NCBI RefSeq assembly: GCF_007744675.1
Contig: NZ_CP036269.1
Location: forward strand, 6,437,046-6,501,045
DNA: 64,000 nt
Reading direction: 5' to 3'
Source: Gimesia alba
GTDB lineage: Bacteria; Planctomycetota; Planctomycetia; Planctomycetales; Planctomycetaceae
In this document: positions 5,299-54,454 of the stretch, piece after piece
Numbering within the stretch: the stretch's first letter is position 1
Layout: each line of letters opens with the position of its first letter
Notes under the pieces: model-generated
Databases searched by the model: none
Told to the model about the DNA's origin: nothing
Seen by the model: the letters and a program-made list of their open reading frames with translations, nothing else
Position numbers and translations under genes: made by a program

Positions 5299-5335
5299 CC
5301 ACCCTGAGCGGGTCGGCGCTAGCCGCCGTTTTTGA
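5299..5335 (+). repeat. REP-like palindrome, class 2 (uninterrupted copy)
   Basis: The core CGGC-GCTA-GCCG forms a small hairpin, preceded by CCACCCTGAGCGGGT and followed by CCGTTTTTGA. A second copy of this sequence lies at 6479-6712, but there it is split in the middle by a 194-bp element, exactly after the CTAG inside the loop/stem. This copy therefore serves as the empty-site reference for that insertion. Confidence 0.7.
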
Positions 5336-6048: not shown

Positions 6049-6471
6049 TTGACTGACGTCGATACCAGGTATGTCAACACAGACCTCGATTTGCTTTCGC
6101 CGTTCGCGTTTGATGTTCTCCACACGGAACTCGCCGCTTTGTGCTGTCCTTTGCACTACGCGGAAACTGCAAACGGTACATGGTCGGCTTGCTACGAGGC
6201 AAATCAACTACAGTCAGACGCCCCGAACGACATCGGTGCCTTTCTTGCTGCGATCGCAAAGTTATCTGATTCAGCCACGGCTCAACTTGCCGCCTGCACA
6301 AAACGCGATTTCAACGTCGGATTCGATTGCTGGGACTCATGGGGATTTAATTACGCTTTCCCGCTTGACCTGCTCACGCAGGTTGCCAATGCCGGGTTCT
6401 CGATTTCGATTACGCTCTACCCGATGCGCAAGACAGACGGCACTCCCAGGCTCGACCCAGACAAAGAATAA
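6049..6471 (+). CDS. Hypothetical 140-residue soluble protein
   Basis: The frame starts with TTG at 6049, placed 5 bases after a good ribosome site (AAGGGAG at 6037-6043), which decides the start. There is no signal peptide or membrane helix. The protein is acidic and cysteine-containing; the clearest conserved-looking stretch is near residues 90-115 (FNVGFDCWDSWGFNYAFPL). Its size and composition resemble small immunity-type proteins of polymorphic toxin loci, but that is only an impression and no toxin gene is adjacent. Immediately downstream is a palindrome split by a 194-bp element, so this gene sits in a rearranging region. Confidence 0.65.
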   Translation: MTDVDTRYVNTDLDLLSPFAFDVLHTELAALCCPLHYAETANGTWSACYEANQLQSDAPNDIGAFLAAIAKLSDSATAQLAACTKRDFNVGFDCWDSWGFNYAFPLDLLTQVANAGFSISITLYPMRKTDGTPRLDPDKE

Positions 6472-6502
6472 CCACCATCCACCCTGAGCGGCACGGCGCG
6501 AG

Positions 6503-6696
6503 GTAGCGTATATTTATTAGTTCTGAGAGTGATTTTGTGGTCTATAGAGTTATCAATGTAATAATTCTCCGTGGCCGACAGTGTGCTGTTGCTCTTATTT
6601 TAAGGACTATGACCGTAATAAATGCCCATTAGCCGCAGGGCGTTAGCCCCGGTTTTCTTCCATTTGCAAAGAGATATTCGAAATGTGAAACGCTAC
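6503..6696 (+). mobile_element. 194-bp MITE-like element, copy A
   Basis: The ends are GTAGCGT and ACGCTAC, perfect 7-bp inverted repeats. It is exactly the same length as copies at 40487-40680 and 54183-54376. It aligns with the 40.5-kb copy through much of its length, notably GTTCTGA, GATTTTG, GCCGACAGTGT and TGACCG-AGTAAT-like blocks, and contains the REP palindrome at 6629-6654. It encodes nothing. It interrupts the class 2 palindrome and is flanked by CGAG/CTAG. Lack of a transposase plus inverted ends make it a non-autonomous element. CTAG-type 4-bp targets are known for some IS5-group transposases, but the source transposase is not in this window. Confidence 0.78.
6629..6654 (+). repeat. 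REP palindrome (class 1)
   Basis: The sequence TTAGCCGCAGGGCGTTAGCC continues CCGGTT. The core GGGC-GTTA-GCCC makes a hairpin, extended after a CA bulge by AGCCG/CGGTT with one G-T wobble. This is the most faithful form of a family found about ten times in the window, always outside genes. Confidence 0.8.
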
Positions 6697-6821
6697 CTAG
6701 CCGCCGGTTTTGAACCTACCAATAATCTTCCGCGTGCACAGGAATCCCAATTGATCGCCATTCGCGGTCCTGATAAATTGAGTCAGAATATATTCCTGTC
6801 TACGGTGAGGCTTAAAAAGTC

Positions 6822-7094
6822 ATGCGAAAACAATCTTTGGGACTGCGAAACCCGGAAGAGATCCCTCTCGCTGGCACCACGCTTCGCGCACTCATGTCCG
6901 AGAAGATCACCGTAGCTCAGGCGAGAAGCGAATTACAGAACTCCGGAGATCCGGGCGACCTGCTACGAAACGAAGACGAGGTTTGGCGGTTCCGAACTCC
7001 TGCCTGGACATGGTCGACAATGTCAGGTGTAGAAGGCATCGTAGTCCTTCGCGACGGCCTCGCCGCCCATTGGCTTGTCACTCGAATGAACTGA
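6822..7094 (+). CDS. Hypothetical 90-residue protein
   Basis: A short soluble protein starting with ATG. The N-terminal half contains a basic helical stretch (ITVAQARSELQ) and the C-terminal half is rich in Trp and aromatic residues (VWRFRTPAWTW) ending in a hydrophobic strand-like part. No signal peptide or known domain is recognised. The ribosome site is poor (GTGAGG about 12 bases upstream). It lies between repeats and a secreted-protein gene on the same strand. It may be genuine but the evidence is thin. Confidence 0.45.
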   Translation: MRKQSLGLRNPEEIPLAGTTLRALMSEKITVAQARSELQNSGDPGDLLRNEDEVWRFRTPAWTWSTMSGVEGIVVLRDGLAAHWLVTRMN

Positions 7095-11461: not shown

Positions 11462-11488
11462 ATCAGCCGCAGGACGTTAGCCCCGGTT
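11462..11488 (+). repeat. REP palindrome (class 1), variant
   Basis: Matches the class 1 consensus except CAGCC for TAGCC at the start and GGAC for GGGC in the left stem, which weakens the hairpin. It lies in a gap between two minus-strand genes. Confidence 0.7.
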
Positions 11489-16358: not shown

Positions 16359-16426
16359 CAGCCGTACGGTGTTAGCCGTGGATTATGTTAGCTCAACAAG
16401 AACCGGGGCTAACGCCCTGCGGCTAA
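16359..16426. repeat. Inverted REP pair (REPIN-like)
   Basis: A divergent plus-oriented REP (16359-16384, CAGCCGTACGGTGTTAGCCG and on) faces a faithful inverted REP at 16401-16426 (AACCGGGGCTAACGCCCTGC then GGCTAA). Two inverted REPs 16 bp apart form a REPIN-type doublet. It lies immediately upstream of the RAYT remnant. Confidence 0.75.
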
Positions 16427-16465
16427 TGATCTCTAATGCCTGACGTGTAACAGGGTGGGGTGTCG

Positions 16466-39807: not shown

Positions 39808-40394
39808 GCACACTCAAAAGTCTCTGCGTCTTTTGCGGTTCGAAATCGGGAAGTGATCAGCAGTACCAGCAATCTGCCATTGAACTTGGTCGTCTGATGG
39901 CGCAGCGTAACATCTCGCTCGTCTATGGTGGTGGCAGCGTCGGATTGATGGGCATCATCGCCGACGCCGTGCTGGAATCCGGGGGAAAGGTCATCGGCGT
40001 GATTCCCCGACAGTTGGCAACCAGAGAACTGCTGCATCCCGGCGTCGAAGAAATGTATGTCGTCGACGACATGCACACCCGCAAAGCGAAAATGTCTGAA
40101 TGCTCAGACGCCTTCATCGCCATGCCGGGCGGCTTTGGCACTCTCGAAGAACTGTTCGAAGTCGTCTCCTGGGTGCAGTTGGGAATTTATTCCAAACCGG
40201 TCGGCCTGCTGAATACAGCCGGCTTTTATGATCCGCTCTTGAACATGGTCGAACATTGCATCGAAACGGAGTTTATCAAACCCAAATACCGGGATCTGAT
40301 TATCGCCGATGACAGCCCGTCCACTTTGCTCGAACATCTCCAGCGTCACCAGTTGCCCAAGATCGAAAAGATTCTGAACCCCGAGCAGATCTAG
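39804..40394 (+). CDS. LOG-family protein (nucleotide 5'-monophosphate phosphoribohydrolase-like)
   Basis: A 196-residue Rossmann-fold protein. The signature PGGFGTLEE is intact, and the N-terminal [13 protein letters not shown] and [10 protein letters not shown] segments mark the LOG (lysine decarboxylase-like, TIGR00730) family. Characterised members hydrolyse cytokinin-type or other nucleoside 5'-monophosphates to free base and ribose 5-phosphate; the physiological substrate in bacteria is often unclear. ATGA overlap with ftsH shows translational coupling, although no functional link is evident. Confidence 0.92.
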
Positions 40395-40486
40395 AGCGCA
40401 TCACATTTTATCATAGCGTGTCTCAATCTAATATACTCGGTCCAAATCACCTTGGAGACGCTACAGTAAAACTGGACACAGTCTAG

Positions 40487-40680
40487 CACGCGTTTCTTGA
40501 ATCGTTCTGATCCTGATTTTGAGGTCGACAGCGTGCGCGATGTAAGATTTCATTGTAGCCGACAGTGTCATGTTGCCCTTGTTTACTGGTCGCTGACCGC
40601 AGTAATGGTCCATTAGCCGCAGGGCGTTAGCCCCGGTTGGACGTCTTTGGTATGGATCGTTCGAATGAACGAGATGCTAT
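40487..40680 (+). mobile_element. 194-bp MITE-like element, copy C
   Basis: The element is the same length as copies A and B and is flanked by CTAG (40483-40486) and CTAA (40681-40684), consistent with a 4-bp target duplication that has drifted. Its ends (CACGCGTTTCTTGA; GAGATGCTAT) have diverged from the GTAGCGT/ACGCTAC pair. The interior aligns with copy A: GTTCTGA, GATTTTG, GCCGACAGTGTC and TGACCGCAGTAATG, then a consensus REP at 40613-40638. It lies between convergent LOG and acpS genes. No coding capacity. Confidence 0.75.
40613..40638 (+). repeat. REP palindrome (class 1)
   Basis: A consensus copy, at offset 126 within the 194-bp element, exactly as in copy A. Confidence 0.82.
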
Positions 40681-40702
40681 CTAAAACAAACCAGGACACA
40701 GG

Positions 40703-41089
40703 TTAAGGGGCCGCTCCCAGTGCGATCGCCGTCGCCGTCGCAAATTCGCGGCTGTGAGAAATGGTGATCAGAATCTCTTCAATGCCCATTTCTCCGGCGT
40801 GAAGTTCGACTCCCCCCGAAATCACAATCGTCGGCTTGCCGCTTTTTAAATTGATGACTTCGATTTCTTTCCAGCCAATCCCTTTGATAAAGCCGGTCCC
40901 CAATGTCTTCATCACCGCTTCTTTCGCGGCCCAGCGACCGGCGTAATGCTGCTCCTTGTTTTTCTTGGAGCCGCAATACTCGTTTTCATTCTCTGTAAAT
41001 ACCCGATTCAGAAACGTATCCCCATGCCGCTCAATCATTTGACCGATGCGTGAGATCTCGACGATATCTGTTCCCAATCCAACTATCAC
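40703..41089 (-). CDS. acpS: Holo-[acyl-carrier-protein] synthase
   Basis: A 128-residue enzyme of normal length. GTDIVEISRI at the N-terminus and GRWAAKEAVMKTLG (~50-63) are the AcpS signatures with the magnesium-binding Asp and Glu; ITISHSREFATA near the C-terminus is also typical. It transfers the 4'-phosphopantetheine arm from CoA to acyl carrier protein, a step needed for fatty acid synthesis. It is convergent with the LOG gene, with the 194-bp element between them. Confidence 0.95.
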   Translation of the reverse strand: MIVGLGTDIVEISRIGQMIERHGDTFLNRVFTENENEYCGSKKNKEQHYAGRWAAKEAVMKTLGTGFIKGIGWKEIEVINLKSGKPTIVISGGVELHAGEMGIEEILITISHSREFATATAIALGAAP

Positions 41090-53959: not shown

Positions 53960-54048
53960 GGAGAGATGGCAGAGAGGCCGAATGCGCCGGTTTGCTAAAC
54001 CGGTGAGCCGTGTAAACGGTTCCACGGGTTCGAATCCCGTTCTCTCCG
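53960..54048 (+). tRNA. tRNA-Ser (GCU)
   Basis: An 89-nt class II tRNA. Acceptor GGAGAGA (53960-53966) pairs with TCTCTCC (54041-54047), discriminator G at 54048. The anticodon stem CCGGT/ACCGG encloses loop TTGCTAA, anticodon GCT at 53994-53996, which reads AGC/AGU serine codons. The long variable arm (GAGCCGTGTAAACGGTTCC) and GTTCGAATC T-loop are intact. CCA is not encoded. An intrinsic terminator follows 11 bases later. Confidence 0.97.
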
Positions 54049-54111: not shown

Positions 54112-54182
54112 ATCCTTGTCACCTTCGATTGCCACATCACTTCAGTACCCCTGCTCAATGCTGCTCGTATCCGAGATACTAG

Positions 54183-54376
54183 ATAGCGTTTATTTAATGG
54201 TTTTGAATGTAATTTTCTGGACCGCAACTTAATCCAGTTCGAATTTAACCGCGGCTAACGCCGTGCGGCTGATCTTGTTTCTAGCCACATTGCCAGCCGG
54301 AATGACCTATTAGCCGAAGGGCGTTAGCCCCGGTTCATCTTTAATCCTAAGGAGAATTCGAATCAAGAAACGCTAC
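54183..54376 (+). mobile_element. 194-bp MITE-like element, copy B
   Basis: Ends ATAGCGTTT and AAACGCTAC, inverted repeats (8 of 9 perfect). The length equals copies A and C. Flanks are CTAG (54179-54182) and CTAT (54377-54380). Its interior differs from A and C on the left half, where an inverted REP (54247-54271) has replaced or diverged from the A/C sequence, and pairs with the forward REP at 54310-54335. This copy sits about 70 bases after the tRNA-Ser terminator. Confidence 0.75.
54247..54335. repeat. Inverted REP pair (REPIN-like) inside copy B
   Basis: Left arm 54247-54271 (AACCGCGGCTAACGCCGTGC and on) is an inverted, diverged REP. Right arm 54310-54335 (TTAGCCGAAGGGCGTTAGCC then CCGGTT) is a forward REP differing by one base from consensus. 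Separated by ~38 bases, they could form a long hairpin, the REPIN architecture. Confidence 0.72.
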
Positions 54377-54454
54377 CTATGACACATTGAATAAAATGAC
54401 CTCATCTCCTTTAGTGTTCCCCTCCTTGAATTTATGCACACTTATTGCGAACTT

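Follow-up and report, generated by a model that had tools for sequence, protein, structure and literature searches.

The window, i.e. the whole stretch of 64,000 nucleotides analysed here (G000:C1:6437046-6501045, in a Gimesia alba genome of 7,769,723 bp), carries three similar units that a sequence-only reading had taken for copies of a transposing element, probably a MITE. This raises the questions of whether these units belong to a mobile family, which transposase would move them and which sites they would enter.

Three copies of a short element in the window

In the bounds first proposed, copies A, B and C (Table 1) are each exactly 194 bp long. Their inverted ends are present in A (GTAGCGT...ACGCTAC) and C (ATAGCGT...ACGCTAC) and drifted in B (CACGCGT...GATGCTAT), as had been described, and the flanking tetramers are indeed CTAG-like: CGAG/CTAG for A, CTAG/CTAA for B and CTAG/CTAT for C. 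Copy A aligns with B over 149 bp (75%) and with the right end of C over 78 bp (78%, E 1e-8). Copy C carries two REP1-type hairpins in inverted order. Besides the hairpin of copy A, REP1 matches are found in the window at 11462, 16209, 16401-16428, 16908, 40612 and 54309, the first four of these places being stand-alone hairpins of the type carried by the element. The REP1 loop is TTAG in 108 of 110 matches (382 kb of G. alba sequence examined).

According to mechanical ORF calls, one ORF ends at 6471 before copy A and the next starts at 6822, a 97-aa call overlapping the copy itself; copy B is preceded by an ORF that ends at 40394 and followed by another at 40703-41089 (-). A tRNA gene (53960-54048) lies upstream of copy C and is the sole report of Rfam in the window at the gathering score, with no match at the MITE copies. 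The left flank of copy B (40390-40481) belongs to a dispersed repeat no shorter than 90 bp (TCTAGAGCGCATCACATTTTA...GACGCTACAGTAAAACTGGAC) that has many matches in genomes G014, G016 and G007.

Table 1. Coordinates of the MITE copies and associated features (positions in the window)
Feature	Position	Strand	Remark
MITE copy A, 196 bp, GG...CC	6502..6697	+	earlier bounds 6503-6696
Left target dinucleotide of A	6500..6501	+	GA (TA expected); CGAG also occurs in REP2 loops
Right target dinucleotide of A	6698..6699	+	TA
REP-like palindrome (REP2) hosting A, left half	6486..6499	+	
REP2 palindrome hosting A, right half	6698..6711	+	overlaps right TA of A
REP1 hairpin within copy A	6628..6654	+	
MITE copy B	40486..40681	+	drifted ends; earlier bounds 40487-40680
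TA dinucleotides bordering B	40484-40485 and 40682-40683		
MITE copy C	54182..54377	+	second subfamily; earlier bounds 54183-54376
TA dinucleotides bordering C	54180-54181 and 54378-54379		
Unsplit REP2 palindrome	5306..5327	+	paralogous target type; G000:C1:6442351-6442372

A family of at least 71 copies

Searches of the G. alba genome gave 42 matches for copy A (E<=1, 40 of 126 candidates scored) and 43 for copy C (E<=0.1, 40 of 128 candidates scored). These numbers are lower bounds and, since the two queries have different best hits, point to two subfamilies. Together with an end-motif search, they led to at least 71 near-full-length copies. By automatic end finding, 28 of these measure 193 bp, 18 measure 194 bp, 10 measure 192 bp, 5 measure 195 bp and 4 measure 191 bp; the other 6 include copy B, measured at 208 bp owing to the drift of its right end. 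The length of the element is therefore near-constant (191-195 bp in 65/71 copies), but the constant 194 bp put forward for the window is not universal (18/71). Nearly all copies are intergenic: an open frame of at least 150 codons covers 1 of 71 midpoints, compared with 347 out of 500 positions drawn at random from the same blocks. The copies include two pairs with 99% identity. Hence, with 71 short copies of near-constant length and without a transposase gene, the family has the general structure of MITEs.

Longer structures considered as putative parents turned out to be nested insertions, i.e. an IS with transposase-like ORFs (by eye) inside a MITE copy (L031 9692-10814) and an IS4-family IS inside another one (L257 1900-3515), or, for a 1.2-kb pair of ends (L258), two MITE copies around a gene. 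The IS4-family IS shows, by eye, what looks like an 11-bp repetition of REP core sequence and may thus be a second IS landing in these hairpins. Single exact end motifs without partner occur at the control level (18 control hits), so that no longer autonomous copy with exact ends is seen in the G. alba genome.

Copy A matches 19 of 59 genomes, that of G. alba included, at E<=0.001 (at most 13 candidates scored per genome). The matches extend from base 1 to about base 152 of A in at least 8 of the 16 other genomes of the genus (base-1 matches being found, among those listed, in G001, G005, G006, G007, G009, G010, G013 and G016). In other genera, the matches listed cover the REP core alone. The search of the genome and of its relatives that had been suggested as a check thus retrieved the family in both. 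Moreover, the end motif YAGGTAGYGTTTMTT is counted 92 times across eight sister genomes, one of which has none, versus 0 for the reversed control. A one-genome-per-species scan, which may omit the G. alba genome and near ones, returned 21 stretches with the exact pattern CTAGGTAGYGTTTMTTWA, 3 of which match the family profile, all on Gimesia MAG contigs (L324, L326 and L327). Elements of 133 bp with the MITE ends were also observed in other planctomycete MAGs (L330 320-454 and L334 2881-3014), the one in L330 having two REP2-like hairpins in inverted order.

Empty sites and shared insertions in sister genomes

Forty-four of the 71 copies were queried against sister genomes for empty sites. The closest sister by these matches is G016 (88.1% identity over 302,087 aligned bases in 20 fetched regions). 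Both flanks align with an empty site of G016 for the copies at 278121 (also empty in G007), 5659016, 2806952, 1321100, 2976477, 6128358 and 6560667, and the left flank and an intact hairpin do so for that at 4151342. Element-free sites, as expected for a MITE, are therefore found in G016 for 8 of the 44 queried loci. Five insertions are shared between G. alba and sisters: 7269965 (G007 and partly G016), 3965073, 2550305 and 6504110 (G016), and 6278875 (G007). The remaining queried loci were rearranged, had a diverged junction or a one-sided match, or were not found. For the window copies, no empty site was located in sister genomes, as A and C have no listed orthologous left flank and the left flank of B is the dispersed repeat mentioned above. 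At the G016 site of copy 3815225 (L157, G016:C1:3865700-3867000), a different insert follows CTCTAG (AGTGCTTTGTCAAGCTAGG...) and is possibly another small element.

These data leave little room for a repeat of ancient origin, with an RNA or regulatory role between genes, that recombination would have spread: the copies are intergenic and bear hairpins, and no parent transposase was found in the G. alba genome, but an immobile repeat is practically untenable in view of the empty sites, the species-specific insertions, the defined ends, the IS with the same ends (see below) and the lack of an Rfam match at the copies.

An IS5-family parent in sister genomes

The sequence-only reading had called for a full-length IS with the same ends and a CTAG-type target, and such an IS is found in sister genomes. 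Genome G010 carries a 925-bp IS with the MITE ends (L259 and L277) whose transposase lies in two frames, G002 a 920-bp one (L278) with a single 271-aa ORF, and G003 a decayed one of 524 bp (L279). All three parent copies (G010, G002 and G003) have CTAG on both sides and the G002 copy sits inside a REP2-like palindrome. At E<=1e-15, the parent IS has no match in the G. alba genome or in 13 other genomes searched, and a scan of genome contigs with the parent ORF2 returned no relative. The distributions of the two elements differ: G002 and G003 harbor the IS and have no match to copy A, whereas the G. alba genome harbors the MITE and has no IS match. Since no close match to the parent transposase is found there, the family is probably stranded in G. 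alba, although the two pairs of copies mentioned above are still 99% identical.

The MITE and the IS share their terminal inverted repeats, with up to 90% identity over about 38 bp on one side and 86-93% over 29-37 bp on the other, as expected for a MITE and its autonomous element. In blastn comparisons, 250 of 253 pieces fall on the IS ends; the interior of the MITE is therefore not recognisably derived from the IS. The parent transposase scores 252.9 bits with the IS5-family model NF033580 (cut-off 110) and exceeds the cut-offs of PF13340 and PF01609, so the parent IS encodes an IS5-family DDE transposase. Its transposase model and domains, its size of about 920 bp and the CTAG on both sides all resemble those of the IS5 family, and an IS5-group element with 4-base CTAG direct repeats is described in PMC9241763. 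The IS427 group has two overlapping ORFs, according to PMC3281130; the G010 copy has two reading frames and the G002 copy a single ORF. The parent may be IS427-group-like. The best plasmid relatives of its transposase are annotated as IS5 family and show about 44% identity; the ends of the fetched relatives (GGCTGTGTCCCTTAA) differ from those of the parent (GGTAGYGTTTMTTWA). The four relatives fetched are flanked by CTAG/CTAG in three cases (one Citrobacter strain) and by CTAG/CTAA in one (Yokenella).

The IS630/Tc1 group is known for inserting at TA in CTAG, which would suit the target of the MITE. However, a parent of that type seems extremely improbable, as none of the 30 loci obtained from 31 PF13358 matches (17 congeneric genomes) has a good pair of ends: four show weak pairs only, mismatched at 8 of 32 positions, and what forms a perfect pair at L236 is a neighbouring MITE copy.

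Insertion into the loops of REP palindromes

Using a loose rule, 23 of the 71 copies adjoin half or the whole of a REP2 palindrome, both halves being present in 12. Unsplit REP2 palindromes are abundant in the G. alba genome (101 matches at up to 2 mismatches versus 6 in the control), and the loops of the 83 listed at 0-1 mismatch are mainly CTAG (71), with CGAG (4) and CCAG (3) as variants (hand count). The insertion at 4151342 has entered the loop of another palindrome (CTGTCGG...CCGACAG), of a type that also flanks a Y1 gene at L174. As judged from these junctions, the element often enters CTAG sites within intergenic REP palindrome loops, and CTAG sites outside REPs are used too.

Copy A was said to split a palindrome whose unsplit relative at 5299-5335 represents the empty site. 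It does split a real palindrome and an unsplit one of the same kind lies at 5306-5327. However, the latter is one of the 83 listed REP2 places, so that it illustrates the target type and not the empty allele of A; the 5299-5335 palindrome is a separate, paralogous REP.

What is duplicated at the target

Flank statistics were computed on 63, 60 or 61 of the 71 copies, those with unusual lengths or unclear ends being omitted. TA is found on both sides of 18 of 61 copies, all 18 having G at -1 and C at +1. Their outer bases are freer, with 12 G, 3 A, 2 T and 1 C at +4, and 17 C and 1 T at -4. The invariance of the inner G and C, compared with the freer +4, indicates that they belong to the element. 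Furthermore, locus 1321100 has CTAA at the empty site of the sister and is flanked by CTAG and CTAA in G. alba, as a TA duplication predicts. Our analysis therefore retains a CTAG-type target but not the 4-bp duplication of CTAG suggested earlier: the duplicated unit is best read as TA within CTAG and the element as 196 bp from GG to CC.

The statistics on 61 copies disfavour a plain duplication of 4-bp CTAG followed by even decay. Some of the flanks also agree poorly with a duplicated TA: inner dinucleotides are identical in only 23 of the 61 copies, and CCAG/CTGG pairs are frequent. The flanking 4-mers are identical in 14 copies and inverted-complement in 22 (CTAG/CTAG being counted in both); among the 50 copies without CTAG/CTAG, 3 are direct and 11 inverted, such as CCAG/CTGG. 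In addition, position -3 is T or C about equally whereas +2 is nearly always T (p=1.4e-7, 61 copies), an asymmetry not expected from plain duplication followed by even decay. Coupling between -3 and +3 is weak (p=0.027 for 63 copies, p=0.053 for 61). A Vsr-like bias from CTAGG to CCAGG as the source of the CCAG/CTGG flanks is unsupported in the 302-kb alignment of G. alba with G016, where 2 of 54 CTAGG sites became CCAGG and 16 of 54 CTGGG; a general bias is thus not seen.

The base at -3 tracks the relatedness of the elements (permutation 0.0006, 60 copies, 20 flank positions tested), including outside REP-like sites (0.03), and that at +3 does not (0.49); the next lowest position is +2 (0.07). 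With neighbours defined from the left or the right part of the element alone, the values are 0.0056 and 0.001 for -3, and 0.14 and 0.09 for +3; for the right part, +4 (0.016) and -5 (0.038) are also below 0.05. Age confounds these values, as neighbours are closer for copies with T at -3 and A at +3 (mean 0.911) than for copies with C and G there (0.868). In G010, C and G occupy these places in 8 of 14 copies whose inner positions are AG and CT, and several of the 8 lie in REP2. In G. alba, G is found at +3 in 6 of the 12 copies that retain both REP2 halves, and none of the 83 listed unsplit REP2 loops ends in GG.

An older wave of insertions might have joined between the CY and RG halves of a palindromic tetramer without target duplication, or have carried the outer flanking base along. 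Locus 5659016, where the sister has CCGG, agrees with a duplication-free insertion. However, the sister tetramers at 6128358 (TTAG), 5439579 (CTAG) and 2976477 (ATAG) mismatch the CYRG that it predicts, and we consider such a wave rather unlikely. If real, this would make a novel case of an IS5-family transposase, one acting without duplication or with its donor flank ligated into the target.

Junctions of this kind, together with the entry into REP loops, would also be explained if the units were extended REP/BIME that a REP-associated tyrosine transposase (RAYT, Y1) moves in single-stranded form, without target duplication. Many copies can be read as AGG...CCT between CY and RG without any duplication, the sister CCGG at 5659016 agrees, the element both carries REPs and enters their loops, and the G. 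alba genome has nine Y1 matches. Nevertheless, scanning these nine loci revealed just two single weak matches to the MITE ends and never a pair, the repeats shown for L173-L176 are unlike the MITE ends, and the parent that shares these ends encodes a DDE transposase of the IS5 family; movement by a RAYT is therefore very improbable. Five of the Y1 transposase genes (L168-L172) are similar to each other, with open frames of 229 aa in four and 244 aa in one, and the gene at L169 lies between AAAAGGGGTCAGGACTCTTTT-like inverted repeats (by eye) unrelated to the MITE.

A MITE with proposed mobilization in trans

The 194-bp units are thus, in all likelihood, MITEs with IS5-family-like ends that would have moved in trans into the TA of CTAG. 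This agrees with the multiple copies of near-constant length, the inverted ends, the lack of a transposase gene, the CTAG-type target, the sister empty sites and the parent IS, and upholds the initial identification as a MITE. The element would be a non-autonomous transposon of 196 bp from GG to CC, its interior unlike the IS and bearing either a single REP hairpin or two. Acting in trans, the IS5-family DDE transposase would recognise the ends (GGTAGYGTTT...) and mobilize the MITE, which would be joined into the TA of a CTAG site with duplication of this TA. Mobilization in trans, be it by cutting or by copying, and TA as the duplicated unit are what we infer from the shared ends and the flanks.

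Comparison with known elements

Bacterial MITEs such as RUP, NEMIS, Nezha and ERIC are named in PMC3733652. According to that paper, these are 70-300 bp long, with inverted ends, non-coding, often adjacent to genes and mobilized by transposases that recognise their ends, all of which resembles the Gimesia MITE. The latter differs by its IS5-family parent, the REP hairpins that it contains and its many copies in REP palindromes. The same paper describes GTAG/CGTC REPs and mentions Planctomycetes; the names Gimesia, Rhodopirellula and Planctomyces do not occur in it. A limited literature search found no description of a planctomycete MITE family and none joining Gimesia with miniature inverted-repeat. 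On this basis, we regard the MITE family and its parent IS as apparently new but of a known kind.

The element resembles REP/BIME/RAYT systems in having REP hairpins both within it and as its target. However, its termini and its parent are of DDE type and no RAYT link was found at the nine Y1 loci. IS1397 and IS621, which belong to the IS3 and IS110 families, respectively, insert in the loop of REP palindromes. The MITE also enters REP loops but is IS5-related and uses CTAG sites outside REPs as well.

Two classes of intergenic repeats would thus be linked, a DDE-type MITE carrying REP hairpins and landing in REP loops. Such a MITE could copy REPs around the genome, so that REPs could spread without RAYT. 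Moreover, as this planctomycete family now has a parent and a target rule and its insertions can be dated, such intergenic repeats can be used as insertion markers. One of the plasmid IS5 relatives (L341, in Citrobacter) was also found at the centre of a palindrome (ACCGGCTA CTAG...CTAG TAGCCGGT), suggesting that palindromic targets may be wider in that IS5 subgroup.
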